Shown here piece by piece: positions 9,835 to 51,552 of a DNA stretch of 52,298 nt. The notes under the pieces were generated by a model, which was not told where the DNA came from, did no database searches, and worked only from the letters and a program-made list of their open reading frames with translations. Origin of the DNA: Bacillota bacterium (GTDB lineage Bacteria > Bacillota > Bacilli > Alicyclobacillales > SLC66); NCBI GenBank assembly GCA_021793015.1, contig JAJYTO010000004.1, positions 1-52,298 of the forward strand. The letters are read 5' to 3'. The position numbers and the translations under genes are program-made. Each line of letters begins with the position of its first letter. Positions within the stretch are counted from its first letter, which is position 1.

Positions 9835-9961
9835 CCGCGACCGTCTGCCTCCCGCGCTTCGCCGATGGATCGCAAATGTGAGCGCCGCGCAGGCGTTGTG
9901 GGTCGTCCCCGTACCCGATCGTGGGATTGCCGACGGTGAAATGTGAAAGGGAGGTTGGCGC

Positions 9962-11098: not shown

Positions 11099-11139
11099 AA
11101 CGGGCGCCGCGAAGTCTTTCACAGTTACAAGGCCCACTC

Positions 11140-11305: not shown

Positions 11306-11390
11306 TTTTTATACGGCAACTTGTCAGGCGCGTCTGGCAAGTTGCCATGGTTGGCGGTGGCCGTCAGGCCATGTTGGTTTTGGGATAGAC
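11300..11390 (+). ncRNA. repeated structured hairpin module, copy 1 (unclassified; RNA status unproven)
   Basis: TTTTTATACGGCAACTTGTCAGGCGCGTCTGGCAAGTTGCCATGGTTGGCGGTGGCCGTCAGGCCATGTTGGTTTTGGGA; homologous to 28163-28212 and to the minus strand at 33090-33180. Confidence 0.4.
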
Positions 11391-11497
11391 ATCCATGCCT
11401 GAGTTTTGCGAGGCAAAATCTCACTTGCGCAGCACCAACAACCGGGAAGAAAAATACGCCTGCGGCGATATTTCGGGATAAGGAGGCTTCAGGACGC

Positions 11498-13075: not shown

Positions 13076-13121
13076 TGATGGAGGACAGGGCACAGGGCAT
13101 AGGGCGGGTGGGGTGTGCGGA

Positions 13122-13175
13122 GGCGCTGCCTGGCAATGCGCCGGGGAGTTCTGACCTCTTTTTGAACAACCTCTA
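13122..13175. repeat. partial copy of the 18305-18571 MITE end
   Basis: GGCGCTGCCTGGCAATGCGCCGGGGAGTTCTGACCTCTTTTTGAACAACCTCTAA vs 18525-18579. Confidence 0.8.
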
Positions 13176-13197
13176 AGGGTCAAAGGGGAGATATGGC

Positions 13198-14049: not shown

Positions 14050-14186
14050 CGGTTTCGGAATACAATTTCAATCACCAGATCCGTTTTTGCGACGGGAAAC
14101 ATCCGCAATGTGCCGGGATCACCATGAATACGGTTTCCGTTTTCGATGCGACGTTTTGAGTCTGCATGCAGGGGAGGTGCGTCACC

Positions 14187-15338: not shown

Positions 15339-15487
15339 GGGTCGGGCGGCATTCGATCGCTCCGGCGCCAACAGCCGGATGAAAAGGCATCGGCGGTGTT
15401 CTTGGCGGATGCATAAGCCGTCCGACTGGCACGGACTACCGTGATTTTCCGGGACAGGATTAGGGAACAACGGAATGAGAGGATGAG

Positions 15488-16441: not shown

Positions 16442-16461
16442 CGCATGGCCTGAACTGACAA

Positions 16462-17178
16462 TTGAGAGAACGGGAGTGGATCCATTTGAATATACTGGCG
16501 ATCGGCGGGCACGCGGGAGACATGGATTTGACGGCGGGAGCGGTGTTGGCGGAGCATGTGCTTCAGGGGCATTCCGTGACCATGCTGCATTTGACGCCCG
16601 GTGAAAAAGGCCACCCCCGGCTGTCGCCGGCCGAATATGGAGAGCAAAAGCGCGCGGAAGCACTGCGTTTTGCGGGGCACATCGGCGCCGCTGTCCGATT
16701 TTTAGACTATAAGGACGGTGAACTGCCGGTCGACGACGAGGTCAAGTATGCCGTGTGCGATGTCATTCGGGAAGTCAAGCCGAATGTCTTGATCACGCAC
16801 TGGAAGGAAAGTATGCACAAGGATCACGCAAATACGCACTTGATCGTTCAGGACGCACGGTTTTATGCAGGATTGAAGACCATCGAGCGGGCGCTGCCCG
16901 CGCACTGGGCGGGGCAATTATACTATGCGGACAATTGGGAAGATCCCTACGGCTATCATCCCGAAGTATTCGTAAGAGTGGGAGAAGAGGCATACCAGCG
17001 GTGGGTCGATGGGATGGCGGAATACGCGTATGCGCGGGGTGAGACGTCCAACTTTCCATTCATCGAGTACTACAAGGCGTTGACGGTCGTTCGGGGCGCC
17101 CCGAACGGATTCAAGCGCGCGCAAGCGTTCGCCGTTGCGCCCGGCGCGCTTGACAGGAAGCTGCATTCCTTCCAGTAG
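16462..17178 (+). CDS. PIG-L/LmbE-family deacetylase
   Basis: AIGGHAGDMDLTAGAVLA, HLTPGEKGHPR, ITHWKESMHKDHANTH. Confidence 0.88.
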   Translation: MREREWIHLNILAIGGHAGDMDLTAGAVLAEHVLQGHSVTMLHLTPGEKGHPRLSPAEYGEQKRAEALRFAGHIGAAVRFLDYKDGELPVDDEVKYAVCDVIREVKPNVLITHWKESMHKDHANTHLIVQDARFYAGLKTIERALPAHWAGQLYYADNWEDPYGYHPEVFVRVGEEAYQRWVDGMAEYAYARGETSNFPFIEYYKALTVVRGAPNGFKRAQAFAVAPGALDRKLHSFQ

Positions 17179-34817: not shown

Positions 34818-35573
34818 GTGGAAGATGAAACCGATGCTGCCAAGGGGCATATGTTAGATCCGCAACGACCGGTGCCGTTGCATTATCAATTGCGGCAAAT
34901 TCTCAAATACCAAGCTCTTAACGGCAGCCTCGCCGATGACAGCGGAAGAGTTCCCACCGAAGCGGAACTGTCCAAACGATTCAAGGTCAGTCGAATTACT
35001 GTCCGGCGCGCATTGAGAGAGTTGGAAAACCAGGGGCTGTTATTGCGGGAACGGGGACGCGGAACATTTCTCAAGAGCAATGACGTCGAAAATTGGAGTG
35101 GGCAACTGCTGGGATTCACGGAGGCCATCCAGGCGGCTGGGTTTGAACCGGGGTCGAAGATACTGCGCCGGGGATTCGTTGAGAATCCTCAAGGGAAAGT
35201 CCAGAAGGTTTTTTTGGGTGAACGGGTGTGGGAACTGAAACGCCTTCGCCTTGCAGATCGTCAGCCCATAGCGATTGAACATGCATTTTTCCCGAAAAAT
35301 GTGGGGATGGAACTGGAGAAACATGATCTGAATGCGATTTCTCTGTACAGGTTCATGGAGACCGACATGAATCTTATCCTCCATGAAGGCAAGCAAACCA
35401 TCAGCGCGGTCAATGCAACCAGAGAGGAAGCAGACATTTTGGAGGTGGCGGAAGGCCGCTCCCTGCTTTATATGGAGCGAGTCACGTATTCTCTTGAGGG
35501 CGGTCCGGTTGAGTTCTTGATCGCAGTGTACAGGCCGGATTACTTTCAATACTCGATTCGCTTGAAAAGATAA
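34818..35573 (+). CDS. GntR/HutC-family transcriptional regulator (UTRA domain)
   Basis: PLHYQLRQIL...GRVPTEAELSKRFKVSRITVRRALRELENQGLLLRERGRGTFL. Confidence 0.93.
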   Translation: MEDETDAAKGHMLDPQRPVPLHYQLRQILKYQALNGSLADDSGRVPTEAELSKRFKVSRITVRRALRELENQGLLLRERGRGTFLKSNDVENWSGQLLGFTEAIQAAGFEPGSKILRRGFVENPQGKVQKVFLGERVWELKRLRLADRQPIAIEHAFFPKNVGMELEKHDLNAISLYRFMETDMNLILHEGKQTISAVNATREEADILEVAEGRSLLYMERVTYSLEGGPVEFLIAVYRPDYFQYSIRLKR

Positions 35574-35655
35574 CCGGGTGTATCAGTTGTCGGGCCAGTT
35601 GGGTGCGCGTCCATAAAGCACGGACGATGATGCGCGAAAGCGCGAAAGAAAGCGG

Positions 35656-35685
35656 TTGACATCTGACCGCCGTCCATATTACTAT
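35656..35685 (+). promoter_or_regulatory. candidate sigma-A promoter for sulfatase 1
   Basis: TTGACA-18-TACTAT about 75 nt upstream of ATG 35760. Confidence 0.45.
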
Positions 35686-35759
35686 GGGAGCGCATAAAGT
35701 TATAACAATATACAATTGATCCGAGCGATCGAATCAATTCATGAGGGGGAGAAGATTGC

Positions 35760-37376
35760 ATGCCAATCAGACCGAATATTCTACTGATTCTCAATGATGA
35801 CATGGGTTATTCAGATATCGGCTGCTTTGGAGGTGAAGTTGATACGCCGAATTTGGATCGTTTGGCTGCACATGGAGTGCGATTCACCCAGTTTTACAGT
35901 ACGGCGAGATGCAGTCCCTCACGGGCGTCATTGCTTACCGGGCTGCATCCACACCAGACAGGCATAGGCGTTTTGACCTACGATCAAGGGCCGGAAGGAT
36001 ATCCCGGAAATTTGAACAAAAATTGTATTACTATACCGGAGGTTCTGAAAAACAGCGGGTATCGGACGTATATGAGCGGGAAATGGCATATAGCCCGCGA
36101 TTTGCGGCAACCATCGGATGCGTGGCCGAAGCAGCGAGGATTTGACCATTTTTATGGAACAATCATTGGCGCGGGAAGTTATTTCGATCCAAATACACTC
36201 ACTCGCGACAATGAGAACATTGAAAGTGAGGCATTGTCTGACGAGGATTTTTACTATACAGATGCGATCAGCGACCAAGCGACGCGATACATTCGCGAGC
36301 ACTCGCAGGATAATCCGGACGTCCCTTTCTTTCTCTATGTGGCTTACACCGCTCCTCATTGGCCGTTGCACGCCAGGGAAGAAGACGCGGCAAAATATGA
36401 GGGGAGATTCGACGTAGGCTGGGATCGACTCAGAGAAGAACGGATGCGGAGAATGGTTGATATGGGGATTATTGATCGGAGCTGGAAACTGACAGACCGG
36501 GATCCAACACAGCCTGAGTGGGAAGCGGCCGAAAACAAGGAATGGCTACTGCGCTGCATGCAGGTGTACGCAGCGCAGATAGACAGCATGGATCAAGGAA
36601 TTGGACGGATCCTTGGGATGCTGGAAGAAACGGGACAGTTGGAAAATACCATGATTATATTTCTTTCCGACAATGGGGCGTGCGCGGAACCGATTCCCGA
36701 AGATGTGGATCCTGATGAGTTGGTTGACAGTCTTGCGATTGCCAGACGGCATACGCGCAAGGGCGAAGAAGTCCGGTTTGGCAACGATCCAAGCATTATC
36801 CCCGGACAGGAGAATACCTACCAGAGTTATGGCGTCGCCTGGGCCAATCTGTCCAATACGCCGTTTCGCCTATATAAACACTGGGTGCATGAAGGCGGCA
36901 TTGCGACCCCCTTCATCGTTCATTGGCCGCAAGGAATTCATGACAAAGGATCGCTGCGGCATACGCCGGCGCAGCTCACAGATGTGATGGCGACTGTACT
37001 GGAGGCCAGTGGCGCCGTGTATCCTGAATCCTATCAAGGGAATAAAATTTTACCGCTGGAGGGGCAGAGTCTTTTGCCGGTCTTTGGGAGGGATACGCTG
37101 GAGCGGGGTACTCTCTATTGGGAGCACGAAGGGAACGCCGCTGTGCGCAGCGGAAAATGGAAATTGGTCAGGAATTATCCGGGCCCATGGGAACTGTACG
37201 ACATGGAACAGGATCGCACTGAGATGAATGATCTCGCGCAGCAATATCCGGAGCAGGTCGTGAAGATGAGCGCTTTGTACTGGGCTTGGGCAAAACGTTG
37301 TGGGGTCATCCCTCGCGAAAAAATCTTGGATATCATCAAAAATAGCGCAGCAAAGGCATTTTGGGAAGAGGAGTAA
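35760..37376 (+). CDS. Cys-type sulfatase (arylsulfatase family), no signal peptide
   Basis: NILLILNDDMGYSDIGCFGGE; active-site CSPSRASLLTG; MSGKWH. Confidence 0.93.
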   Translation: MPIRPNILLILNDDMGYSDIGCFGGEVDTPNLDRLAAHGVRFTQFYSTARCSPSRASLLTGLHPHQTGIGVLTYDQGPEGYPGNLNKNCITIPEVLKNSGYRTYMSGKWHIARDLRQPSDAWPKQRGFDHFYGTIIGAGSYFDPNTLTRDNENIESEALSDEDFYYTDAISDQATRYIREHSQDNPDVPFFLYVAYTAPHWPLHAREEDAAKYEGRFDVGWDRLREERMRRMVDMGIIDRSWKLTDRDPTQPEWEAAENKEWLLRCMQVYAAQIDSMDQGIGRILGMLEETGQLENTMIIFLSDNGACAEPIPEDVDPDELVDSLAIARRHTRKGEEVRFGNDPSIIPGQENTYQSYGVAWANLSNTPFRLYKHWVHEGGIATPFIVHWPQGIHDKGSLRHTPAQLTDVMATVLEASGAVYPESYQGNKILPLEGQSLLPVFGRDTLERGTLYWEHEGNAAVRSGKWKLVRNYPGPWELYDMEQDRTEMNDLAQQYPEQVVKMSALYWAWAKRCGVIPREKILDIIKNSAAKAFWEEE

Positions 37377-37684
37377 CGCCCCGTGGGTCCCCGGGCCGCG
37401 GGGCTATGAGTTCCGCTGTAACGATGACGGCAATCGTCGCTGCTGGGCTCGATATTCCGACAGACTGGCGCATGTATCATAGGGTTACGACAGCACATGT
37501 CATTCGCGACATTATGAAAACGGTTCCAATGTGATTGTTCTGGCACGATGAAAAGGGGTGATGAAAACTGAAATTATTGAATTTTGAGGGGGAATACGCG
37601 CGTTTTGTCCGCGGGATTTATGAGAGAAGGTGATTCGCGAGACAGTTGGAGGGCTTGACAAATAGATTCTTGAGGGGGATCTTG

Positions 37685-38902
37685 ATGAAGGTACAGTATA
37701 ACCAAGGATCGGATTGGGATAGATACGCCAGAAAAGTTCTGTTCTGGAATTGGCTGACCTGGTTTTTCAACTTTATGGACCGGGGCCTCATTGGGCCGCT
37801 TCTGCCTCTGATTGTGCTGTACTTCCATTTGTCGCTGACAGCGGCAGGAGGTATAGTTTCGTTATTTTTTGTAGGGTACTTGTCGACGTTTTTGGGAGGC
37901 TTCCTGTCCGACAAACTTGGACGCAAGAGAGTGATATCCCCCTCAGTCATTGGCTTTGGGGTGGTCACCAGCCTTACTGCGCTCGCAAGGTCCGTGCCAT
38001 GGCTTGCAACGACGCGGATAGTGACCGGCGTGTTTGAGGGCTTTCAGTATTCAACCGGCGCCGCATGGTTGAGCGAAACCTATCCTTATGCAAAGCGGGG
38101 AAAGGCGCTGGCCCTGTGGGAAACGGGATACAGTATTGGAACTTTGGGCGGGATGGTTCTTGCCACGCTGCTGGCGGCCCGTTGGGGATGGCGCGCGCCG
38201 TGGCCGGTCGCCGGTTTCTTGAGTATCCTGGCGGGTGTGTTGATGATGATATTCGTCAAAGAGAGGCCACAGATCAGTACCCCTGGGTACGACGAAATGA
38301 AAGTTTTTACTGCCGGTGCAGCGCCAAAAATACGAGATGTGTTTCGCATGCGCAATGTGTGGGTCGTTTTCATCCTGCACGGACTGTACAATTTTACGTT
38401 TTGGATGGCGGGCGCATGGATAACCACTTACGCGATTAAGGTGAAGCATCTCTCCTTTGTCAACGGAGGGTTGCTTTCAGCGGTATTGTTCGCCGGAATT
38501 ACCATCGGACTTCTTTTGAACGGGGCGGTTGCCGATCGGATCGGGCGTGTCAAAGCGATCAGTCTCCTGTCTTTTGTCTCAGCATTGATCATGCTTGTGT
38601 TTACTCAAGTTTCTTCACCCGTATTGCTGTATGTTTGCATCGTCCTCGCCGGTATTTTTGGAGCGTATATCTCGTCCGCGATCGCCCTTGTCACAGACAC
38701 CTCAGGACCTGAGATCGCAGGCACAGCATTTGGGATCGCAACTTTCGGAGGGGAAATGGGCGCTATATTGGGCCCGCTCATGGGTGGATTTGTGGCGCAG
38801 TATTTTGGTTTTCAGACCGCTTTCTATATGTTGCCGATATCCTTGGTGGTGTCTAGTATTGTCGTATGGGTTGCGCGTGACGTGCATCACAGGTATCGCT
38901 GA
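37685..38902 (+). CDS. MFS transporter
   Basis: 12-TM pattern; GGFLSDKLGRKRV; DRIGRVKAISLL; SD gaggggg. Confidence 0.9.
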   Translation: MKVQYNQGSDWDRYARKVLFWNWLTWFFNFMDRGLIGPLLPLIVLYFHLSLTAAGGIVSLFFVGYLSTFLGGFLSDKLGRKRVISPSVIGFGVVTSLTALARSVPWLATTRIVTGVFEGFQYSTGAAWLSETYPYAKRGKALALWETGYSIGTLGGMVLATLLAARWGWRAPWPVAGFLSILAGVLMMIFVKERPQISTPGYDEMKVFTAGAAPKIRDVFRMRNVWVVFILHGLYNFTFWMAGAWITTYAIKVKHLSFVNGGLLSAVLFAGITIGLLLNGAVADRIGRVKAISLLSFVSALIMLVFTQVSSPVLLYVCIVLAGIFGAYISSAIALVTDTSGPEIAGTAFGIATFGGEMGAILGPLMGGFVAQYFGFQTAFYMLPISLVVSSIVVWVARDVHHRYR

Positions 38903-38942
38903 GTCCACGTGGCCCCGACGCAACGGAAGGGGGGTTCTGATC

Positions 38943-40193
38943 ATGGCGATCAGCGTCATGTGGAAGACGGTCTCAGAGGCTTGCAACTTGGCCTGCGATT
39001 ATTGCTATTACAGCCATTGCGGAGGCCAGCCAAAAGACATTCAACGCATCGAACCCCATGTGCTTGAGACGTTCATCCGCGACTACATGGGGCTGTCAAA
39101 CGGGGTTGCCGCCTTCGCCTGGCAGGGGGGAGAGCCCCTCCTGGCCGGCCTCCCGTTTTTTGAACAGGTGGTCTCTCTGCAAGCGCGTTACGCGCCTCCC
39201 GGCACGTCCATCGCCAATGCGGTCCAAACCAACGGCACGCTGATCACGGAGGAATGGGCCCGCTTTTTTAAACGGTACAACTTTCTGGTCGGCGTGAGCA
39301 TTGACGGCCCCAAATCCATTCACGACGCGCGGCGGGTGACGCACGCGGGGGGCGGTTCCTTTGACCGCGTCATGCGCGGCGTCGACCGTCTGAATGCGCA
39401 CCAGGTGGAGTACAACGTGCTCACCGTCATCCATCCCGGCAATGTCGGGCGCGTGAAGGAATTGTTGGATTTTTATCGAGACCACGAGTTCCGCTGGGTT
39501 CAATTCATTCCCGCGATGGCCTTCGCGGCGCAACATGTGGAACAGACCGGATCGTATGAGATCACGCCCGAGCAGTACGGCGAGTTTCTCTGTCAGGCAT
39601 TCGACGAGTGGTACGACGAAGAGTTTCCCCGCTTCTCAATTCGGACGTTTGACAGCGTCCTGTCGCTGTATATGAACCGCGATCCGGGATTCTGCGTGCT
39701 GTCGAAAACGTGCGGGCAAACCCTGGTTCTGGAGCAGAACGGCGATGCGTACCCGTGCGATTTCTTCATGAACGAGGACTGGAAATTGGGCAATGTGGCG
39801 CAGGACTCGATCGCAGAGCTTCTCGCGAGTCCTGCGATGCGTCGTTTCGCGACCTTAAAACCGACTCTTCCCACGGAATGCCAGATTTGCAAGTGGAAGA
39901 GCGTCTGTCACGGGGGATGCCCGCGCAACCGCGTGTACGGCGACGGCGGGGAAGTGGCGCCAGATTATTTTTGCTCGGCGTACAAGCGGTTTTACAGCTA
40001 TGCGGAGGAGCGCATGCAGCGATTGGCGCTGCGGCTGCGCAAACGGTTGTTTGACGAGGGGATCGATTCGATGCGGGATCGGGAGGTGGGCAGGAACGAT
40101 CCCTGCCCGTGCGGCAGCGGCCAGAAGTTCAAACGTTGCTGCCAGCCTCTGCAAGAAGCTGGCTGGCGATCCCTCAGCGTTTATTCTGGATAG
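38943..40193 (+). CDS. anaerobic sulfatase-maturating enzyme-like radical SAM/SPASM protein with C-terminal SEC-C motif
   Basis: CNLACDYCYY; FAWQGGEPLLAG; SPASM CX..CPCDFF...CQICKWKSVCHGGCPRNR; GRNDPCPCGSGQKFKRCC. Confidence 0.9.
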   Translation: MAISVMWKTVSEACNLACDYCYYSHCGGQPKDIQRIEPHVLETFIRDYMGLSNGVAAFAWQGGEPLLAGLPFFEQVVSLQARYAPPGTSIANAVQTNGTLITEEWARFFKRYNFLVGVSIDGPKSIHDARRVTHAGGGSFDRVMRGVDRLNAHQVEYNVLTVIHPGNVGRVKELLDFYRDHEFRWVQFIPAMAFAAQHVEQTGSYEITPEQYGEFLCQAFDEWYDEEFPRFSIRTFDSVLSLYMNRDPGFCVLSKTCGQTLVLEQNGDAYPCDFFMNEDWKLGNVAQDSIAELLASPAMRRFATLKPTLPTECQICKWKSVCHGGCPRNRVYGDGGEVAPDYFCSAYKRFYSYAEERMQRLALRLRKRLFDEGIDSMRDREVGRNDPCPCGSGQKFKRCCQPLQEAGWRSLSVYSG

Positions 40194-40234
40194 ACCGTCA
40201 CGCTGCAACCCATTCGTGCGAGGGAGGGACGAAG

Positions 40235-40615
40235 ATGATCATCCAGCGAATCGATCACTTTGTAATGACCGTCAGAGATATTGACGCGACCTGCGATTTT
40301 TACGCCAAAGTACTTGGCATGGATGTGGCGACATTTGGGGCCGGGCGAAAAGCTTTAGTGTTTGGGACGCAAAAAATCAATCTGCATGCCGTCGGCAAGG
40401 AATTCGATCCGAAAGCGCTCAGACCCACTCCGGGAGCGGTCGATGTGTGTTTCATTACTGAGAATCCTCTTGAGGGAGTGATAAAGGAACTGCATTCATT
40501 GGGTGTAGTCATCGAAGAGGGCCCAGTCAAACGAACTGGCGCCACGGGCGACATCCTGTCTGTATACTTGCGGGATCCGGACGGTAATCTGGTCGAAATA
40601 TCCAACTATTTGTGA
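40235..40615 (+). CDS. VOC (glyoxalase/bleomycin-resistance) family protein
   Basis: IQRIDHFVMTVRDIDATCDFYAKVLGMDV; YLRDPDGNLVEISNY. Confidence 0.9.
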   Translation: MIIQRIDHFVMTVRDIDATCDFYAKVLGMDVATFGAGRKALVFGTQKINLHAVGKEFDPKALRPTPGAVDVCFITENPLEGVIKELHSLGVVIEEGPVKRTGATGDILSVYLRDPDGNLVEISNYL

Positions 40616-40907
40616 GGCTTCGAGTATACTTTTCTTGATCTCAGGAGTCGCAGCGAAATAACCTGGCAATCATATGGCCGTGCCAGTGAGTGCTGGCGAG
40701 CAATGCAGGTGCGCGCAAGATAGCTGTTGAGACACTTATTTCATCGCGGTTCCTCAGCTTGAAACGGGAGAGAAAGGTCTCAGTTTGGGGCGGGAGAGAA
40801 AACGATTGTGGACAGTCACGTTGTCGAACCGTATACGAGAGTGTCGCCGTCTTATCTTGCAGTTCCGCCGCCCCGCTATAATACGGCTCGCGAGGGGATG
40901 AACCGCC

Positions 40908-42503
40908 ATTCTGATCCTTTCAAATATTGACGGTTTCGCGCTTGACCCAGGCGGCGATCGGTTTGACGGCGTTGCGATCGCGGACGGACGTATCACCGCG
41001 GTCGGAGCCGCCGCAGACTTGTTTGACCGCTATCGACAGTTGCGCCCTGAGCGCTTGGACGCGCACGGCGCCGTAGTCTTGCCGGGATTCATCGATTCGC
41101 ACCTGCATGTGTCGGGCGTCGCGTCGAGTCTCGCGGAACTCGACGTCTCAGACGCTCACTCGGTCGACGATCTCCTTGACCGCATCGCGGTCTACGCGCG
41201 AACCCGCGCGCCGGGACAATGGATCGTGGGCGGCGGATTCGACGAGAACCGTTTTCCCGAAAGCCGGCTGCCGACCCTGGCGGAACTCGATGAAGCGTCA
41301 TCGGCCGCGCCGCTCTTTCTTGCCCGCGCATGCAGGCACGTCTATCTGGCGAACAGCGCCGCGTTTGCAGTCGCAGGCGTGAGACGCGATTCCCCCGATC
41401 CGGACGCCGGTTTTTTTGGACGGGACGCGCGCGGCGAATGGACCGGCGCGGTTTACGAACAGGCTGCGCTGCCGTTCTTTGCTGTCCTGCCGGATCGCTC
41501 CGATGACGAGTGGGTCGAGATTCTGTCACGCGCCCTGTCGCAACTCGCCCGTCTTGGAATCACAGAGATTCATTCGGATGACTGCCGCTATCTGGGCGGG
41601 CTTCTGCGCACGAGAACGCTTCTGTCGCGCGCCCAGCAGCGGGCGCCCATCCGCATCCACGAGTTGCTTTCTTTTGAGGATTGGCGGCAGGGGCGTTTGA
41701 CGCGAACGCCTCTGCCCGTTAGAACAGAGGACGGGCTGCTTTCGTTTGGCGCAGTCAAACTCTTTGCCGACGGTTCCTTTGGCGGTCGAACCGCCTGGCT
41801 CAAGGAACCGTACGAAGACGCCCCGCACGCGGGGCAACCGACGTATACCAGCATGGAACTTCGGCGTCTGGTGGAAGCGATTCACACCGACGGATTTGCG
41901 GTTGCGATTCACGCCATAGGCGATGCGGCGCTCGACGCCGTGCTTGACGCTTTGGAGGCCCACCCGCCCGCCTCTGACGCAATTCTTCCCGATCGCATCG
42001 TACACGCCTCTCTTTTCAGTGAGGAGGCTGCGGCCCGCGCCGCAAGACTCGCGGTTGCCATAGACGTGCAGCCGCGCTTCATCACGTCGGATCTGCCATG
42101 GCTCAGGGAACGAATCGGAGCCCATCGCGTCAGACGCGCCTACCCCTTTCGATCACTCCTGCAAGCGGGACTCAAATTGGCAGGTGGATCCGATGCGCCA
42201 GTGGAACCGGCTTCTCCACTGCTTGGTATGCACGCCGCCGCCACGCGGCGCATCTTGGGGCATGCCGAGGTTCACGGCGCGGACGAAAGCCTGACGGTCG
42301 ATCAGGCGGTTCGTCTCTATACCACAGGCGGGGCAGTCGCGCGCGGGGGAGACAAGCGCGCCTTCGAACCGGGATCTCCCGCCGACCTGGTGCTCCTTGC
42401 GAGAAACCCATTGGGTTGTCAAGACGCGGACGAGTTGCCGCAGATCCAGATTCTCGGCACTGTCGTCGCCGGACGCCCGGTTTATTGGGCGGCGCGAGAA
42501 TGA
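40908..42503 (+). CDS. amidohydrolase (YtcJ-like); start codon unclear
   Basis: In-frame homology-like N-term ILILSNIDGFALDPGGDRFDGVAIADGRITAVGA precedes track start 41019; PGFIDSHLHVSG; GGSDAPVEP. Confidence 0.85.
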   Translation: MLILSNIDGFALDPGGDRFDGVAIADGRITAVGAAADLFDRYRQLRPERLDAHGAVVLPGFIDSHLHVSGVASSLAELDVSDAHSVDDLLDRIAVYARTRAPGQWIVGGGFDENRFPESRLPTLAELDEASSAAPLFLARACRHVYLANSAAFAVAGVRRDSPDPDAGFFGRDARGEWTGAVYEQAALPFFAVLPDRSDDEWVEILSRALSQLARLGITEIHSDDCRYLGGLLRTRTLLSRAQQRAPIRIHELLSFEDWRQGRLTRTPLPVRTEDGLLSFGAVKLFADGSFGGRTAWLKEPYEDAPHAGQPTYTSMELRRLVEAIHTDGFAVAIHAIGDAALDAVLDALEAHPPASDAILPDRIVHASLFSEEAAARAARLAVAIDVQPRFITSDLPWLRERIGAHRVRRAYPFRSLLQAGLKLAGGSDAPVEPASPLLGMHAAATRRILGHAEVHGADESLTVDQAVRLYTTGGAVARGGDKRAFEPGSPADLVLLARNPLGCQDADELPQIQILGTVVAGRPVYWAARE

Positions 42504-43480
42504 ATCATCCAATCGCACTGCGGGCCGTGAACTGGCGACCGACGATTCACCCTAGTCCGCGCGCGCTGTTGGCGGATCTGGAGCAGCGCTGCGGAGGCCG
42601 GATCGACGCGAAAGGGCGTCCCACCCTGACGGACGCCTCAGATGACAGCGTGCCGATCGCCGCCATCGTTCTGCCCGCCCACTTCTTCAGTTGCGCTGTC
42701 GCGGAAGTCCTGGGTCTGCAACCGACTGACCGCACTGCCTTGCGGGCGGTGGCCAACGCGCCTCGCTTCGCGTGGGAAGAGGCGCTCGACCTGTGCGCAC
42801 AAACGGCGCGGCGAACGCGAAGCATGCTCGTTCCCGGCACACACGTCCGCGCGTTCGGGAGTTCAACCCGCCATGGCGCCTATGTCATTGCGGCAGACGG
42901 ATCCGTCTTGGCGCAGGTGTGGCAAACTCATCGGTCCCGTGGCGAGGAGTGGCTCTTTGACGAGCGCGGCGACGAGTTGCCAATCTTCGAAACACCTTTC
43001 GGAAACATCGGCGTCATCGTCGGCAGGGATGCCTATTATCCAGAAACCGCGCGCATGTTGGCGCTGCGCGGGGCGGATGTGATCCTGTCGCCGCAAGCGA
43101 CGGCGGCCCCATTTAACCCGTGGCGGCAACTGTCGGGCGTGTGGAAAGACGCGCAACAAAACCAGGTGTTCGCCGTTGAGGCGCACGTGCAAGGGACCCT
43201 TTGGGGACAATCCTTTGAAGGGCGTTCCGCCATTCTCGCTCCCTGCGAAATCACGCCGGATGGAAGCGGCTTTCTCTCGGAATCGGGCGACGCTTTTTTA
43301 CAGTCCGCACATTCGGACAGCGAACCGCTGATGTGGGAGGCGCAGGTGAGCCTAAACGATCGCTCGCGGGCGCAGGCCATCTTTCCGGTTCTTCCGCACT
43401 TGAATCCAGTGTTGTACAAAAATCAACCCTGGTGGAGGACGCCAGAAACGCCAGAGGAACCTGGGGGTGAGCGGTCGTGA
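42500..43480 (+). CDS. carbon-nitrogen hydrolase-fold protein, apparently catalytically degenerate
   Basis: ETPFGNIGVIVGRDAYYPETARMLALRGADVILSPQATA; ATGA overlap with amidohydrolase; Glu/Lys/Cys positions substituted. Confidence 0.8.
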   Translation: MNHPIALRAVNWRPTIHPSPRALLADLEQRCGGRIDAKGRPTLTDASDDSVPIAAIVLPAHFFSCAVAEVLGLQPTDRTALRAVANAPRFAWEEALDLCAQTARRTRSMLVPGTHVRAFGSSTRHGAYVIAADGSVLAQVWQTHRSRGEEWLFDERGDELPIFETPFGNIGVIVGRDAYYPETARMLALRGADVILSPQATAAPFNPWRQLSGVWKDAQQNQVFAVEAHVQGTLWGQSFEGRSAILAPCEITPDGSGFLSESGDAFLQSAHSDSEPLMWEAQVSLNDRSRAQAIFPVLPHLNPVLYKNQPWWRTPETPEEPGGERS

Positions 43481-44778
43481 AGACGTCGGCGAATGGACGC
43501 GGACCCATCCCCGCGATCGTTGCGCGCGCGATTCTGTCCATGCTGCTGTCCGCCGCGCGCGGCGCGGTCGCCTGGAAGACTCGGCCAGCGGCCATCCGCG
43601 ACGCCTTGACGCGGCTGTCGCCTGGTATCGCTGCGCGCGACAGCACTGCAAACCGCGTGCGGGTTGCGGCCGTGCAGTGGCGAATCACCCTCGCGGCGAC
43701 GGTCGCAGACTACGTCACGGAGATGGACGCGATCGTTCGCGAGAGCGCAAGCCTCGGCGCAACCGTCGTGGCCTTCCCCGAAAATAACGGTCTGGCCCTG
43801 CTCGGACTCATCCCAGGCGTGAAACGGCTCGCGCGCGCCGCGCTTTCCCAACCGGGCAGAAAGAATGCCGACAACTCTTGCGATCCGCCGGGCCCTGCGC
43901 GTGAGTCTGATTCCTGGCGATCGTCGGACTCTACACAAGAGTTTCGTGCTCCGCGTGAGTCGGATTCCTGGCGGCCGCCGGACTCTGTGCAAGAGCCTCG
44001 TTCTCCGCATTCACCGGACTCCCCACAAAAGAGCGCCTTGGTGTCGCCGCTCGACGTATTTCGCATGATGAGTCCTTTTGTCGATCGCGTAGCTCGCACG
44101 GTCTTTTCAGAACTGGCCAAACGGCATCGGATGGTCATCATGGCAGGCAGTTTTCTCGTGGCTGACGGGGAGGGAAACGTTTGCAATACGGCCTATTTGT
44201 TTGACGAGACGGGCCGCTTGATGGGAACCCAGGATAAGCTGCATCTCGTCGAGGCAGAGTCAACGTGGGGTCTGGCGCCGGGGCGAACGCTCACAGCGTT
44301 TTCCACACCTTTTGGAACGCTCGCCGCGCCTGTGTGCATGGACGCGACGTATTTTGAAACCTTTCGGATTTTGCTGTCGCTTGGCGTTGACATTGCCCTC
44401 CTGCCGATCGGAGACGCGGCGGAATACCGCGCTTTCTATGCTCTGCGAGGCATCTGGCCGCGCGTGCAGGAGAGTCCGATGTACGGAGTGAAGGCGGCCC
44501 TCGTCGGAAATCTGTTTGGGCAGACGTTCACCGGCAAAGCGGGCGTGGTTGCCCCCATCTCCCTCACCCCGCAGCAAAACGGCGTGTTGGCCGAAGCAAA
44601 AACGTATGATCGTTCGGAAATCGTGGTGGCTGATTTGGACATCCAACGGCTCCACACTTATCGGGAACAGGAGTGGGAAGACAACGACATTCGGCCATCC
44701 CTCTACGAACGAGACTTGTCCGAATTATACGCGAGGATGCAACTGGAAGTGGAATTGGCCAGTCCCGGACAACCATGA
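43477..44778 (+). CDS. carbon-nitrogen hydrolase (nitrilase superfamily), triad intact, with repeat insertion
   Basis: VVAFPENNG (E), GTQDKLHLVEAE (K), LAAPVCMDATYFE (C). Confidence 0.88.
   Translation: MKTSANGRGPIPAIVARAILSMLLSAARGAVAWKTRPAAIRDALTRLSPGIAARDSTANRVRVAAVQWRITLAATVADYVTEMDAIVRESASLGATVVAFPENNGLALLGLIPGVKRLARAALSQPGRKNADNSCDPPGPARESDSWRSSDSTQEFRAPRESDSWRPPDSVQEPRSPHSPDSPQKSALVSPLDVFRMMSPFVDRVARTVFSELAKRHRMVIMAGSFLVADGEGNVCNTAYLFDETGRLMGTQDKLHLVEAESTWGLAPGRTLTAFSTPFGTLAAPVCMDATYFETFRILLSLGVDIALLPIGDAAEYRAFYALRGIWPRVQESPMYGVKAALVGNLFGQTFTGKAGVVAPISLTPQQNGVLAEAKTYDRSEIVVADLDIQRLHTYREQEWEDNDIRPSLYERDLSELYARMQLEVELASPGQP
43899..44030 (+). repeat. 54-bp in-frame imperfect repeat inside nitrilase domain
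   Basis: RESDSWRSSDSTQEFRAP RESDSWRPPDSVQEPRSP HSPDSPQK. Confidence 0.85.
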
Positions 44779-44889
44779 TGCTTGGCCTTGATGGCTATGC
44801 GGCCTGTCCGAACAGAGGACACTGCTGCGTCCGAGCGAACAGGTTGCAGTACGCGCCAGCCAGAGTGATGAACTATGGACATATTCTCC

Positions 44890-44919
44890 TTGATTTATTA
44901 AATCCAATGGATATAATAA
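44890..44919 (+). promoter_or_regulatory. ROK promoter overlapped by palindromic operator
   Basis: TTGATT-16-TATAAT; TTATTAAATCC-aat-GGATATAATAA palindrome at 44895-44919. Confidence 0.65.
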
Positions 44920-44924
44920 TAGAT

Positions 44925-46109
44925 ATGAATACTAAAACAACTCGTCTAGTGGGAACGAATCAAAAACATGGACAGGATTATAACAAATCCGTGGTATTTG
45001 AACATATTCGCTTGTTTGGCCCAATTTCCCGCGCCGATATTTCCGCGAGGACTTTGCTTGTGCCTCAAACAGTGTCCAACCTTGTTCGAAACTTGATTGA
45101 AGGGGGGCTCGTCGTCGAGTTGCAGGAGTCTGGAGTTGCTCGCAAACGGGGGGCGCATCCAACTCAGTTAGCCGTTAATGAAAACGCTCTCTTTACAGTG
45201 GGTGTGCAAGTGCAATATAGCCGGATATTTGCGGCTCTCGTGAATCTGGGAGGAAAGATTGTCAGGAGTGCTGAGCGACATTGGAATCTGCCGAGTGACT
45301 TTGAGACCTTCGTTAAAGGACTGGTGACTATGAGTGAAGAGCTAGTCGTTGGCGTGGATGGGATCAGGTCGATTACCGAATTGCAGGGTATCGGGATAGG
45401 CGTGCCTCGACTTTATGGAAAGATGTTTGGCAACCTTCCGGCGCCGAGTTGGCCATCTCAAATTGTGTTAAAGAAATACCTGGAGGAAAATGTTGATTGC
45501 GAAGTTATCGTCGCGAATAATGCCCATTTGGCGGCTGTCGGTGAGTACTGGATGGGGCGAGGGAAGGTGCCTGCCACTTTTCTGTACGTATACCTTGGTG
45601 ACAATGTCGGAGGCGGTTTGATTGTCGATGGTGAGGAATATGTCGGTGTAAGCGGAAAAGCAATCGAATTGGGTCACGTCCAGTATATGCCGGGCGGGAT
45701 ATCCTGCTATTGCGGTTCTAAGGGGTGTCTGGATCAGTATGGCAGTGTCAACGCCCTAAGAAGACGGCTGTCTGTGGCGAGAGATGCGCCGCTCGGTGAA
45801 GTCTTGAATACTGCAAATGAGCAACAACTTACCATCATTCACGAGGGGATGGAGGCGTTAGCCGCCAGTATCATCAGTGTTTTGTCTGTTCTGGATGTCT
45901 CCACATGCGTGATTGGAGGTCCTCATGCCAAGGATCTGTTCTCCCTGTTGCTCATTCCTTTGGAAAGCAAGATTCGCGAAAGAGAGTATGCAGTGGAGGT
46001 CAGGTGTTCGAACATTGATATCCACGCGGGAGCCATTGGGGCGGCGTCGACTGTATTTCATGATGCGCTTTGGTGCAAGACCTCCAACTTGCTCAAGGCG
46101 GAATCTTGA
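44925..46109 (+). CDS. ROK-family transcriptional repressor (NagC/XylR type)
   Basis: N-term wHTH FEHIRLFGPISRADISARTLLVPQTVSNLVRNLIEGGLV; ROK zinc motif ELGHVQYMPGGISCYCGSKGCLDQYGS. Confidence 0.92.
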   Translation: MNTKTTRLVGTNQKHGQDYNKSVVFEHIRLFGPISRADISARTLLVPQTVSNLVRNLIEGGLVVELQESGVARKRGAHPTQLAVNENALFTVGVQVQYSRIFAALVNLGGKIVRSAERHWNLPSDFETFVKGLVTMSEELVVGVDGIRSITELQGIGIGVPRLYGKMFGNLPAPSWPSQIVLKKYLEENVDCEVIVANNAHLAAVGEYWMGRGKVPATFLYVYLGDNVGGGLIVDGEEYVGVSGKAIELGHVQYMPGGISCYCGSKGCLDQYGSVNALRRRLSVARDAPLGEVLNTANEQQLTIIHEGMEALAASIISVLSVLDVSTCVIGGPHAKDLFSLLLIPLESKIREREYAVEVRCSNIDIHAGAIGAASTVFHDALWCKTSNLLKAES

Positions 46110-46151
46110 TAAACAAAAATACCTTGGAGAAATGAGAGAGGGGGGGCGGCA

Positions 46152-46913
46152 ATGCGCAAAACTTTCAAATTCTCACAAAGTTTGATCAGCATACTTTCCA
46201 TAATCGTAGGCTTAGGATTATGGCAAATTGCTGAGTTAACACTTCCCGCCTTGGTAGCTGGGCCGATCCAAGTTATTCAAGCATTTGGGGAAGGGATTCA
46301 AAACGGAACTTTAGTCCCTGATATTTCCATTAGTCTGGGAAGGGTTTTGGAAGGTTTTATTCTGGCTCTTGCAAGCGCTGTCGTATTTGGATTTATTCTC
46401 GGATGGTATCAGCCCGTGCGCTTGATGTTGAACCCATGGCTTCAATTTTTGCGCATGATTCCTCCCATTGCTCTCATTCCTCTCGTTGTTGTGTATCTGG
46501 GCGTGGGTCAGCCTGCAAAAGTGTTCGTTATTTTCTTTGCCGCATTCTTGGTGATGTTGGTCACGATCTACCAAGGCGTCCGACAAGTCGATCTCACGTT
46601 GATCCGTGCGGCGCGTGTGCTTGGGTGCAATGATTGGATTCTGTTTTCTCGAGTAATTCTCCCTGCTTCTGTACCTCACATTTTTACGGCCATGCGTCTG
46701 GGGATTGCCGCGGCGTGGACGACACTGGTTGCGGCGGAGCTTATTGCCGCGTCACATGGATTGGGATTCATGATTGAGCAGGCAAGCAATTACTTTGAAA
46801 TGCCAGTTGTGTATCTCGGGATTACCATCATAGGGATCTTGGGTATAGCGATGGATCGAGGTATTTTGGCAATGGAAAGAAAATTCACATTATGGCAGGA
46901 GAAAATCCAATGA
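46152..46913 (+). CDS. ABC transporter permease (SsuC/TauC-like)
   Basis: FLRMIPPIALIPLVVVYLGVGQPAKVFVIFFAAFLVMLVTIYQGVRQVDLTLIRAARVLG. Confidence 0.92.
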   Translation: MRKTFKFSQSLISILSIIVGLGLWQIAELTLPALVAGPIQVIQAFGEGIQNGTLVPDISISLGRVLEGFILALASAVVFGFILGWYQPVRLMLNPWLQFLRMIPPIALIPLVVVYLGVGQPAKVFVIFFAAFLVMLVTIYQGVRQVDLTLIRAARVLGCNDWILFSRVILPASVPHIFTAMRLGIAAAWTTLVAAELIAASHGLGFMIEQASNYFEMPVVYLGITIIGILGIAMDRGILAMERKFTLWQEKIQ

Positions 46914-47710
46914 CGGCCGTACAAGAGTGCAAGATACACGTCGATCATGTTGAGAAGCGTTATCAGGTAGGTGAGCGTCAGATCGTGGCTCTTAGCGAGA
47001 CCAACATTAAAGTGAATGAGGGGGAATTCATATGCCTGGTGGGGCCCACGGGATGTGGAAAGACCACGCTGCTTAATATGATTGCGGGCCTTGAACCTGT
47101 CACATCGGGCAAAATCGTCGTGAGCGGCAGGGAAGTGCAAAAACCAGGACGGGATCGGGGAGTTGTATTTCAACAATATGCGTTATTTCCTTGGCTGACT
47201 GTCAGAAAAAATGTTGAGTTCGCACTGTCGATGCGAGGGATAAGAGGAACGGAACGGTCCAAGATGGCTCGCGAGTTTCTTGCGTTAGTCAATTTGGAGG
47301 AATTCGAAAATGCTCTGCCCAAGCAATTGTCTGGTGGGATGAAACAACGCGTTGCGCTTGCTCGAGCCTATGCGGCTCAGCCGGATGTCCTGTTGATGGA
47401 TGAGCCCTTTGGAGCGTTGGATGCTGACACAAAAGCCCAATTACAAGAGGATTTACTTACCAGTTGGCGTCAACTTAAAACCACGATCATCTTTATCACT
47501 CACGACGTAGAGGAAGCTGTATTTCTCGCGCAACGAGTGATCGTAATGGCGGCAAGACCCGGAAGGGTCAAGGCGGAAGTGGACGTGCAACTACCGTTAG
47601 TACGGGACCATACTGTCCGATTCGGTCCCGAGTTGCTTGTCTATAAGAATGACATTTGGAATAGACTGCACGCGCAACGTGTCGATGAGGAATCGATTCA
47701 TGAGAATTAA
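46910..47710 (+). CDS. ABC transporter ATP-binding protein (SsuB/TauB-like)
   Basis: Walker A GPTGCGKTT; LSGGMKQRVALARA; LLMDEPFGALDADTK. Confidence 0.93.
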   Translation: MTAVQECKIHVDHVEKRYQVGERQIVALSETNIKVNEGEFICLVGPTGCGKTTLLNMIAGLEPVTSGKIVVSGREVQKPGRDRGVVFQQYALFPWLTVRKNVEFALSMRGIRGTERSKMAREFLALVNLEEFENALPKQLSGGMKQRVALARAYAAQPDVLLMDEPFGALDADTKAQLQEDLLTSWRQLKTTIIFITHDVEEAVFLAQRVIVMAARPGRVKAEVDVQLPLVRDHTVRFGPELLVYKNDIWNRLHAQRVDEESIHEN

Positions 47711-47765
47711 GGAGGTGATATAGCACGGTTGTCGTGATTTTAAAAAAAACCAGGGGGTTTTGAAC

Positions 47766-48785
47766 GTGAAATTGCACGCAAAGAAAATTGTTTCCATGTT
47801 GTCTGCGGGAGCACTTACACTACTAGCAGTTGGGACGTCCGTTCCCACCGCAATGGCCGCAAGCAGTAGTCAACCGACAACAATTACCGTCGCGTATATG
47901 GCCAATATGGGCGGGGCGAGCACCTTGGCGGTAGCAGAACAGATGGGGTACTTCAAGAAGGCTGGACTTAACGTACACCTGGATCTCTTTCAAACCGGTC
48001 CGGCAGAGCTGGACGCGATGGCATCCGGCACCGTAAATATCGCCTACATTGGCTCTGGGGCCGCGTTCTTGCCCATGAAGGGGTTAGCAAAGATCTTCTT
48101 TATCGACAGCATAGGGCTTGGGGATGGCGTCGTCGTGTCCAAGACATCAGGTGTGCATACACTGGCCCAATTAAAAGGGAAAAGCATCCTGCTTCCTATG
48201 GGAACAACCGCGGAGATCATTTTGTACGAGGCTCTGAAGAAGGCCGGCCTAACCTTGAATGATGTTCACTTGGTGAATACGAGTCCTTCTTCTGAGGTCC
48301 CCGCCTTTCTCTCAGGGAGAGCTCCGATTATGGCGGGATGGGATCCGAATCTTCAAGTGGTATTGCATAAATCACCTGGTTCTAAATTGTTGGCGAGTGA
48401 CAGGATGTTCTATCCACAGGTGTCTCTTCCAGGTATTTGGACCGCATCAAACTCTTTTGCGAAGACTGGTGTTCCGACGCTGTCCAAGTTTACCTGGGCC
48501 ATGTTGCAGGCAGTTAATTACAAATCGTCGCACATGTCGCAGGCGGTTTCATGGACCTCCAAAATGACTGGTGTCCCGGATAATTTGCTTGCACAATCGG
48601 TCAAAGACTCCATCTTTCCAACAGAGTCGACCCTGATCAAGTATTACACGTCAGGCGATGTTGCGAAGTGGTTCAATACGCTCGGGTCAACGTTTGTGGC
48701 CATGAAGGCTTTGCCCAAAGCGCCCGCGTATTCTTCCTATTCGTTGCCGAATCTCGTATTGCAGGCCAGTAAACTCAAACTGTAA
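47766..48785 (+). CDS. ABC substrate-binding protein (SsuA/TauA/NMT1-like)
   Basis: Signal peptide; ITVAYMANMGGASTLAVAEQMGYFKKAGLNVHLDLFQTGPAELDAMASGTVNIAYIGSG. Confidence 0.9.
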   Translation: MKLHAKKIVSMLSAGALTLLAVGTSVPTAMAASSSQPTTITVAYMANMGGASTLAVAEQMGYFKKAGLNVHLDLFQTGPAELDAMASGTVNIAYIGSGAAFLPMKGLAKIFFIDSIGLGDGVVVSKTSGVHTLAQLKGKSILLPMGTTAEIILYEALKKAGLTLNDVHLVNTSPSSEVPAFLSGRAPIMAGWDPNLQVVLHKSPGSKLLASDRMFYPQVSLPGIWTASNSFAKTGVPTLSKFTWAMLQAVNYKSSHMSQAVSWTSKMTGVPDNLLAQSVKDSIFPTESTLIKYYTSGDVAKWFNTLGSTFVAMKALPKAPAYSSYSLPNLVLQASKLKL

Positions 48786-48798
48786 ATCGGTATGCAAT

Positions 48799-48821
48799 TA
48801 GGCCGATATCATGTCGGCCTA
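48799..48821 (+). other. perfect hairpin between SBP gene and sulfatase 2
   Basis: TAGGCCGA-tatcatg-TCGGCCTA, no immediate U-tract. Confidence 0.75.
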
Positions 48822-48854
48822 TGCACTCATCCATTTTTCTTAGGAGTGGAACCA

Positions 48855-50231
48855 ATGAAAGTGATTTATATAGACATTGACAGTCTCAGACCGGATCACC
48901 TGCATTGCTATGGGTACCAAAGGTCCACATCTCCAAACATTGACCGGTTAGCTGCGCAAAGCGTGCGATTTACACAGTGTTTCACTTCAGACAGCCCTTG
49001 CATGCCTTCACGAGCGGCGATGATCAGCGGGACTTTCGGAATCAAGAATGGAATCGTTACGCATGGCAGTGATGGACTGGCAATGCCGCTGAAAACCCGC
49101 ACGATACCTGCGTTACTCAGAGAAAATGGGGTGCGGACCACAGCATTTTCAACATTCGGGAGGCACCCTTCTCCGTGGTTTTACATGGAATGGGAGGAGT
49201 TTCACGATCCAAAGGGATGGCGCTTTCAGCAAACCCCCGCTTGGAAGATGAATGAGCAGGTCCTTCCGTGGATTGAGGAAAATGCTCAAGACGACTTCTT
49301 CCTCTATGTGCAATACTGGGATCCTCATGCGATATATGATGCTCCCCTATCCTTAGTAAAGGCCATGGGAGAATATGATTTGCCCTCCTTTCCTGATGAT
49401 AAAGCAATCGAGGGCCATCAGCAGGATCGCTTTTGGCACTCCGCCAGCATGATGGGCGTCGATTCCTATGACAAGTATGCGGCGATGGTCAATGAGTACG
49501 ATGCCGAGATACGATATGTGGACTATCATGTGGGACAGTTGCTTACTGCGTTGGAACGAAAGGGAATTCTTGATGAGACCATGATCATAATCGCAGCTGA
49601 TCACGGTGAGGGGTTAGGGGAGCATGGAGTCTATGTGGAGCATTGGAGTGTCATGGACACGGTCAACCACATCCCGCTTATTGTGAAATTTCCACACAGC
49701 GCAGGCGCAGGGCGTGCATGTCCTGCTTTAGTCTATCAGTTCGATATTGCGGCCACAGTGTGCGAGGCATTCCAGATTTCAAAACCTGCGGAATGGGATA
49801 GCGAATCATTGTGGCCTTTCATCGATGAAAAGGCATTTGCGGGCCGTTCACACCTTGTGATCGGACATGGTCTATACACCGCCCAGCGTGCGGTCGTCAC
49901 GGATCAGTGGAAGTTAATTCGAACATTGCACAGTGGTGAGTGGCGCTATCCGCCGCAGCAACTCTTTGATCGCCAGGTGGATATTTATGAACAGACCGAT
50001 GTATGGTCCACTCATCAAGACATCGCAAAGTCGCTTAACGGATTGTTGACTGATTGGGAATACCTGAACCGCCCGACTCTAGGGTATGACCCGTTAGTTG
50101 TCACAGCGCATCAGGGTCCTCCGGGATTGGACTTGTATGGGAAAGAAACCATGGAAGATTATTATGTCAGGGGAATCCCTCAAACCGTTGCTTATTTGGA
50201 CAGGAAACCAGACGTTCCCGCACTGGAGTAG
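48855..50231 (+). CDS. Cys-type sulfatase 2, no signal peptide
   Basis: VIYIDIDSLRPDHLHCYGYQRSTSPNIDRLA; active-site CMPSRAAMISG; AADHGEGLGEHG; SD aggagtgg. Confidence 0.92.
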   Translation: MKVIYIDIDSLRPDHLHCYGYQRSTSPNIDRLAAQSVRFTQCFTSDSPCMPSRAAMISGTFGIKNGIVTHGSDGLAMPLKTRTIPALLRENGVRTTAFSTFGRHPSPWFYMEWEEFHDPKGWRFQQTPAWKMNEQVLPWIEENAQDDFFLYVQYWDPHAIYDAPLSLVKAMGEYDLPSFPDDKAIEGHQQDRFWHSASMMGVDSYDKYAAMVNEYDAEIRYVDYHVGQLLTALERKGILDETMIIIAADHGEGLGEHGVYVEHWSVMDTVNHIPLIVKFPHSAGAGRACPALVYQFDIAATVCEAFQISKPAEWDSESLWPFIDEKAFAGRSHLVIGHGLYTAQRAVVTDQWKLIRTLHSGEWRYPPQQLFDRQVDIYEQTDVWSTHQDIAKSLNGLLTDWEYLNRPTLGYDPLVVTAHQGPPGLDLYGKETMEDYYVRGIPQTVAYLDRKPDVPALE

Positions 50232-50253
50232 ATGCAGAGGGAGTGTGTTACAA

Positions 50254-51552
50254 ATGGGGTTGACGCCGCCCGTATTGTTTTACAAGGAGCATCTGGAAAA
50301 GGTAATTCTTCCGTTTTGGACGAAAAATGCATTGGACCTAGAAAACGGCGGCGTTTACACCTGTTTCAGCATGGATGGGGCCACACTGATCAGCCGCGAC
50401 AAGTATACCTGGTCGCAGGGACGGTTCCTGTGGCTCGCATCACGCCTTGTCAGAATAGCTAGGGCCGGGGAACTGGATGTGGATATGGATTTATTTCTAG
50501 AGGTGGCCGAAAAGACGGCATCCTTCTTGTTTTCTCATGTGTTTTTGGACAATGGCCATTGTGCGTTCGTATTGTCCAATCAAGGTGTTCCCAAATTAGT
50601 TGGTAATCAAGAAAGACTGGATGCCAGTATGTATGCGGACTGTTTTGTATGCCTGGGGTTTACAGAATATGCGAGTGTGACAGGGGATCTGGAATTATTG
50701 AACCGAGCATGGGATCTCTATCTATCCGTTTTGGATAGGGCAGAGACTGGCGATATAGTGACTGAGCCATACACCGTGCCGTCTGAATTGACCGTTCATG
50801 GAATACCCATGATTCTACTCAATCTCAGTTACGAACTATACAGAGTGTTTAAGGAAAAAGGCGATCCACGCACTGAGACCGCCATGAGTCACAGTCAAAC
50901 TCATATTAATTCCCTCTGGCTTCAGTACGATGTGGAGGCTAAGGTTCTTCGAGAACACACGGTAAAGCCACCCTTTCCGAAGGAAGGGTGGGAGGGGACA
51001 CTCCTTTGCGAACATATAGCTCCGGGACATACAGCCGAGACACTGTGGATGATGATGGAGTTTGCACGTGATTTGTCCGATTGGGATTTAATCGATCGCT
51101 GCTTGGCAGCGTTGAAGCAGACATTTCGTCTTGCATGGGACGATCAGTTTGGAGGACTATTTCGGTTTGTGGGGTTACGTGGAGGAGCACCTAACGGCAG
51201 GATGATGGGAACTTCCTACGAAGATCAAGTTCTGGATACATGGGACATGAAGTTATGGTGGGTGCACACAGAGTTTCTGTATGCGGCTTACTTGGGATGG
51301 AGTCTGACGCAGGATCAGGAATGTCGTGCAATGGCGGAGCAAATTCATCAGTACACGTTTACTACTTTCCCCAATCCTAATGAGACGCTGGGGGAATGGC
51401 TGCAAAAGAGGGATCGCCAAGGCTTGCCCCAAGATAAAATTGTGGCTTTGCCCGTTAAAGATCCGTACCATATTGCGCGTGATCTCTTATTATTGATGAG
51501 TTTGTCGAGGGATGACTCAAATATTGAGCCGCACGCTATGCGTGGGAACTGA
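50254..51552 (+). CDS. N-acylglucosamine 2-epimerase (AGE)-family protein
   Basis: LPFWTKNALDLENGGVYTCFSMDG...WSQGRFLWLASRL; HIAPGHTAETLWMMMEF; DMKLWWVHTEFLYAAYLGW; DPYHIARDLLLL. Confidence 0.85.
   Translation: MGLTPPVLFYKEHLEKVILPFWTKNALDLENGGVYTCFSMDGATLISRDKYTWSQGRFLWLASRLVRIARAGELDVDMDLFLEVAEKTASFLFSHVFLDNGHCAFVLSNQGVPKLVGNQERLDASMYADCFVCLGFTEYASVTGDLELLNRAWDLYLSVLDRAETGDIVTEPYTVPSELTVHGIPMILLNLSYELYRVFKEKGDPRTETAMSHSQTHINSLWLQYDVEAKVLREHTVKPPFPKEGWEGTLLCEHIAPGHTAETLWMMMEFARDLSDWDLIDRCLAALKQTFRLAWDDQFGGLFRFVGLRGGAPNGRMMGTSYEDQVLDTWDMKLWWVHTEFLYAAYLGWSLTQDQECRAMAEQIHQYTFTTFPNPNETLGEWLQKRDRQGLPQDKIVALPVKDPYHIARDLLLLMSLSRDDSNIEPHAMRGN

Follow-up and report, generated by a model that had tools for sequence, protein, structure and literature searches.

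We analyzed a stretch of 52,298 nucleotides from a Bacillota bacterium (Alicyclobacillales, SLC66; assembly GCA_021793015.1, contig JAJYTO010000004.1), hereafter the window, in which positions 34818 to 51552 encode two Cys-type sulfatases (S1 and S2), a radical SAM sulfatase maturase (anSME) and an ABC importer of the Ssu/Tau type. This locus is made up of two transcription modules, not one, and we consider it somewhat probable that these are adjacent, separately regulated modules for intracellular desulfation. The genes lie on the + strand in the order GntR/UTRA regulator, S1, MFS transporter, anSME, VOC-fold protein, amidohydrolase, two carbon-nitrogen hydrolases, ROK regulator, SsuC, SsuB, SsuA, S2 and an AGE-superfamily 2-epimerase, with GntR–S1–MFS–anSME forming module 1 and ROK–SsuC–SsuB–SsuA–S2–AGE forming module 2. 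In the scheme that we propose, the SsuABC-type importer of module 2 would bring a small sulfate ester into the cell intact, the most likely candidate being a manno-configured monosaccharide 6-sulfate (mannose- or ManNAc-6-sulfate). S2 carrying formylglycine would cleave the sulfate in the cytoplasm, and AGE would invert C2 of the released sugar, giving the gluco epimer for use in ordinary catabolism. As long as that sugar is lacking, ROK would repress the module 2 operon alone, acting through a palindrome at the start of its own gene. In module 1, the MFS protein would import a different anionic sulfate ester for desulfation by S1, anSME would install formylglycine on S1 and could also serve S2 in the window genome, and the GntR/UTRA protein would control the module.

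The gene content agrees with a preliminary description of this DNA, every gene being found where that description had placed it and anSME lying between the two sulfatase genes. After correction, the likely starts are 37685 for MFS, 38943 for anSME, about 44925 for ROK, 46910 for SsuB, 48855 for S2 and 50254 for AGE, and Shine-Dalgarno sequences are present at most of them. Because of these starts and the short gaps between genes, the sequence suggests that SsuC (46152..46913), SsuB (46910..47710), SsuA (47760..48785), S2 (48855..50231) and AGE (50254..51552) form a single transcription unit together with ROK (44925..46109; PF00480, 120 bits). The GC content is 0.51-0.54 in module 1 and 0.49-0.50 in module 2, and reaches 0.61-0.64 in the block between them. 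This high-GC block (41019-44778), which holds the amidohydrolase and the two carbon-nitrogen hydrolases, is outside the desulfation story; its amidohydrolase is absent from the counterpart in genome G001.

Each regulator is accompanied by a candidate operator. For the HutC-type GntR/UTRA regulator (34818..35573; PF07702, 109.7 bits; PF00392, 49.6 bits) this is GTTATAACAATATAC at 35699..35713 (+), about 46 bp 5′ of S1, whose 15 bp are identical across three genomes despite diverged flanks and which, allowing up to two mismatches, has a single match in the window where 0.02 would be expected. For ROK it is TTATTAAATCCAATGGATATAATAA, a 25-bp imperfect palindrome at 44895..44919 (+) at the start of the gene, which is identical in genomes G000, G001, G007 and G014 and occurs at exactly one site in each. 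No such site was found in the sister genome that lacks the operon (G002), nor any with reversed-pattern controls. Since the palindrome is unique in each genome having the operon and absent from the one without it, ROK probably controls the module 2 operon alone and not the maturase. A search for an operator common to the two modules found none. Given a conserved operator candidate for each regulator and a ROK site that occurs once per genome, we regard the two modules, on these predicted sites, as separately controlled. Separate regulators and candidate operators, as well as the high-GC block, would also be expected if the modules were chance neighbors with no functional link, and in relatives each module is found without the other as its neighbor. 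Against this, anSME and module 2 adjoin in G001 too, though S1 was not found there. We therefore give the chance arrangement a substantial probability, if somewhat short of even.

The location of the sulfatases bears directly on the direction of transport. Both proteins carry the formylglycine motifs that had been described for them, CSPSR in S1 (35760..37376; PF00884, 220 bits; Cys51, codon 35910-35912) and CMPSR in S2 (PF00884, 132 bits; codon 48999-49001), in each case at the N-terminal formylglycine site of PF00884 proteins. Signal peptides were judged by direct reading of the N-termini together with hydropathy. Neither sulfatase has one: S1 and S2 open directly on the fold's initial strand (NILLILNDD and MKVIYIDIDS) with no hydrophobic segment, while SsuA does have a hydrophobic N-terminus, a Sec signal peptide without a lipobox. 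These observations bear out the earlier remark that the sulfatases lack a visible signal peptide, and support the view that an intact sulfated substrate would be imported to reach cytoplasmic formylglycine-type sulfatases. The lipobox of SsuA is absent from the window lineage and from G007 and G014, and present in sister-family orthologues (L055, L056, L058, L059), which is odd for the binding protein of a monoderm.

When relatives were tested for co-occurrence of these genes, as the preliminary description had left to be checked, the co-occurrence held. Module 1 recurs with its gene order unchanged in G049 and G053, with identities of 60-61% for GntR, 71% for S1, 75% for MFS and 56-58% for anSME, and without module 2 adjacent. 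Module 2, as ROK-SsuCBA-S2-AGE, is also found in G001 (S2 97% identical) and in G007 and G014 (S2 83-84%); the latter two lack module 1 and have homologues of ROK (72%) and AGE (68-70%) in the same positions. Homologues of S2 at 54-57% identity adjoin SsuC, SsuB and SsuA in G027, G033, G042, G049 and G147, the last from another family. Nine genomes from three families thus share the S2–SsuCBA core, in which S2 may precede or follow the ABC genes, and these nine together with G053 form one supported clade in the S2 tree. Beside the S2 homologue of G053, a sugar-porter MFS and an aldose epimerase replace SsuABC. More remote kin of S2, in Paenibacillus thalictri and on a plasmid of Arthrobacter citreus NEB 577, also sit with SsuCBA, and therefore the pairing arose or moved more than once. 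The combination had been called unusual, which is only half right, as several lineages pair S2 with an importer of the Ssu type. Clade C homologues from Paenibacillus and Bacillus (about 30-34% identity) were set aside, because those that were read carry PTEVAH in place of CxPSR and are not formylglycine sulfatases. In Paenibacillus, the genes for such non-formylglycine sulfatase-like hydrolases (L079, L083, L113) lie next to those for APS kinase and oxidoreductase-like proteins.

We then considered what the substrate of module 2 may be. The preliminary description took ROK and AGE to point to a sugar and the transporter family to small sulfonates or sulfate esters. The neighbors in relatives support something sugar-like: GH38, GH76 and GH125, GH20, a sugar MFS, an aldose epimerase and AGE. 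A GH38 alpha-mannosidase is adjacent in all four genomes of the S2 sister clade (47-52% identity), two of which have a GH38-GH76-GH125-S2 row. The Arthrobacter plasmid relative combines SsuCBA and sulfatase with GH20, and a Haloarcula marina plasmid (L225 8995-16199) carries a sulfatase 40% identical to S2 with a sugar ABC importer, a PfkB kinase, a TrmB regulator and an epimerase of the AGE family. When S2 was modeled with AlphaFold2 (pLDDT 90), the structure gave its highest TM-scores (0.73-0.79) to 6-O-sulfo-hexose exo-sulfatases of subfamily S1_11, in which the marine enzyme PbSulf2 is a proven mannose-6-sulfate sulfatase (PMC13063451). S2 would resemble PbSulf2, from a diatom-mannan polysaccharide utilization locus of Polaribacter, as a proposed hexose 6-sulfate exo-sulfatase with the closest folds and with mannosidase partners in its sister clade, although PbSulf2 is a periplasmic lipoprotein of a Bacteroidota member (PMC13063451) and S2 is predicted to be cytoplasmic. 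The AGE protein (PF07221, 67.8 bits) best matches PDB entries 2gz6, 6f04 and 1fp3, with which the Arg, His-x-x-Glu and C-terminal His active-site motifs align, and reaches 181 of 600 bits against the NCBIfam N-acylglucosamine 2-epimerase equivalog, below the cut-off. The predicted substrate is thus likely to be a hexose or N-acetylhexosamine 6-sulfate, while the exact sugar, a manno-configured 6-sulfate, is a guess that we hold tentatively.

Several observations weigh against the scheme as we have drawn it. The alpha-mannosidase context is that of the sister clade and not of the S2 operon itself. The identity of S2 to the solved S1_11 enzymes is about 18%, other subfamilies scoring alike by sequence, so that the transfer of a substrate from S1_11 is weak. 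The GK-x-H lysine motif, kept in S1 and in companion sulfatases, is not clearly matched in S2, where an FGRHPSPWFY motif is conserved; this type of motif and GHGLYTAQR are invariant in the alignment of S2 homologues. AGE is nearest to N-acylglucosamine (GlcNAc) 2-epimerases, which need no mannose substrate. Lastly, Ssu/Tau importers are known for sulfonates, and we know of no case in which a sugar-sulfate ligand was shown for one.

The epimerase in particular raises the alternative of a pathway for GlcNAc-6-sulfate or another N-acetylhexosamine sulfate, in which S2 would free GlcNAc or ManNAc, AGE would interconvert them, and a NagK-like kinase and NagA would finish the breakdown. In addition to the affinity of AGE with GlcNAc 2-epimerases, AGE homologues at 45% identity sit with NagA/NagB-like genes, NagA is present in 9/9 genomes checked, S1_11 includes GlcNAc-6-sulfatases, and GH20 lies on the plasmid relative. 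Bifidobacterium breve uses GlcNAc-6-sulfate and has a sulfatase/nag locus, Bbr_0846-0854 (PMC6045583), which, like the locus described here, is Gram-positive and joins a sulfatase, a maturase (AtsB in that case), a transporter and sugar catabolic genes; it has a sugar transporter and nagA/nagB where the window has an Ssu-type ABC importer and AGE. However, a GlcNAc product would need no 2-epimerase, and alpha-mannosidases are the partners of the S2 sister clade. We judge this pathway possible, with roughly one chance in a few. Elsewhere in the window, a cell-wall sugar recycling block at 7727-17178 encodes a BadF/NagK-like kinase, an RpiR regulator, a beta-lactamase-like hydrolase, a GH84-type N-acetylglucosaminidase, a D-aminopeptidase, a NamZ muramidase, a GNAT protein and a PIG-L deacetylase.

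The importer belongs to the Ssu/Tau/NrtA family and is like SsuABC/TauABC sulfonate importers in that permease, ATPase and binding protein are all of this family. It differs from them in falling below every characterised equivalog cut-off (SsuC 105/347, TauC 150/342, TauB 244/357 and SsuA_fam 125/163.5 bits), in lacking a visible monooxygenase partner, and in an operon that includes a sulfatase. The permease scores 150 bits with both the TauC and SaoP models, the ATPase 264 bits with SaoA and 244 with TauB, and the binding protein 125 bits with TIGR01728 (cut-off 163.5), in all cases under the cut-offs; no linked SsuD or TauD oxygenase was seen among the open reading frames of the locus. The conflicting pointers to a sugar and to a sulfonate would be most readily reconciled if an importer of the Ssu type had adapted to carry a sulfated sugar. 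Alternatively, the locus may scavenge sulfur from aryl or alkyl sulfate esters. The Pseudomonas ats cluster, a sulfur-starvation system for such esters, encodes an Ssu-like ABC importer (atsRBC) and the cytoplasmic arylsulfatase AtsA, and the window is like it in having an Ssu-like importer adjoining a cytoplasmic formylglycine sulfatase. S1 also fits such a role: its best PDB matches are 7all and 1hdh (319.7 bits across residues 3-517 for the latter), and 1hdh is P. aeruginosa AtsA, of class S1_4 (PMC5066984). By sequence match, and not by a subfamily tree, S1 is nearest to characterised S1_4 enzymes; K108/H110 of its GK-x-H motif (GKWH), H200 and D304-N305 are invariant with respect to four homologues. 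The window departs from the ats cluster in its control by ROK, in having an epimerase as partner and relatives linked to glycans, and in the different sulfatase subfamily of S2. Moreover, GntR/UTRA and ROK are not known sulfur regulators, AGE, glycoside hydrolases and sugar transporters are the partners, the S2 fold is nearest to sugar sulfatases, and the host lineage includes mine acidophiles, for which inorganic sulfate would be plentiful. We therefore consider sulfur scavenging unlikely.

The maturase exceeds the curated cut-off of the TIGR03942 anaerobic sulfatase maturase model (402 vs 349 bits) and is encoded at 38943..40193 with radical SAM, SPASM and SEC-C domains (PF04055, PF13186, PF02810), the SEC-C motif being at the C-terminus. 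It follows the MFS gene (37685..38902; TIGR00893, 133 bits, under the cut-off), whose nearest subfamilies are D-galactonate/anion symporters. It had been suggested that two modules share this one maturase; two modules were indeed found, but their sharing is not established. The same genome has about 10 sulfatase genes and a second anSME (85% identical, contig C184), flanked by two other sulfatase genes (L064 384-4520), and therefore the anSME of the window is not the sole maturase; in relatives, either module may be accompanied by anSME or FGE, and two genomes have the S2 module without a recognized maturase. At the end of the S2 operon, an aerobic FGE is present in G027 and G042 and anSME in G049, in the same position; this exchange indicates a requirement of the operon products for formylglycine in those hosts. 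No FGE match was found in G033 either, which is uninformative since the contig breaks off right behind ROK. A glyoxalase/VOC-fold protein is encoded 41 bp past anSME in the window (40235..40615; PF00903, 54.8 bits), and also follows anSME in G001, though not in G049 or G053.

The two genomes without a recognized maturase, G007 and G014, provide a more specific case. The S2 contig of G007 matches Ferroacidibacillus organovorans SLC66. In both, S2 is the only PF00884 protein and keeps the Cys and all clade-invariant residues. No anSME was found (best match 51 bits vs the cut-off of 349) and no FGE, in draft genomes that are 96 and 100% complete. A radical SAM protein on contig C71 of G014 was considered as a hidden maturase and rejected, as its best matches are to maturases of ribosomally synthesized and post-translationally modified peptides (TIGR04463, 207 bits; anSME model, 67 bits). 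The dN/dS of S2 is 0.084 between G007 and G014 and 0.068 in the pair having anSME, which indicates purifying selection. Either another maturation route is used, or S2 is active with an unmodified Cys, or a maturase escaped detection in the draft genomes. Choline sulfatase with an unmodified Cys turns over slowly, and some bacteria mature Cys-type sulfatases without an identified FGE or anSME, the activity in E. coli having been termed elusive (PMC6189696). These findings, together with the lack of a clear match to the lysine motif, would fit an S2 that acts without formylglycine, or on a phosphate, phosphonate or sulfonate ester, making the adjacent maturase irrelevant to it. Yet CMPSR is a full formylglycine recognition motif, other lineages have anSME or FGE in the operon, and both genomes are drafts, and we find this reading improbable. 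A broader proposal, that the Ferroacidibacillus-type S2 is functional and selected, activated by a novel formylglycine route or independent of formylglycine, and fed by an Ssu-type importer turned sugar-sulfate importer, is speculative, with perhaps a minor chance of being correct.

Taken together, the data point to a conserved intracellular sulfate-ester pathway in which the types of parts are known and the combination of importer, sulfatase and epimerase is new. It connects what appear to be sulfated sugars with a family of importers known for sulfonates, and does so in Gram-positives of soil and acidic sites, not in marine or gut bacteria. With one such sulfatase each, under strong selection and with no known maturase, while their relatives use anSME or FGE, G007 and G014 offer a clean test of the long-standing puzzle of how Cys-type sulfatases are activated in such bacteria.

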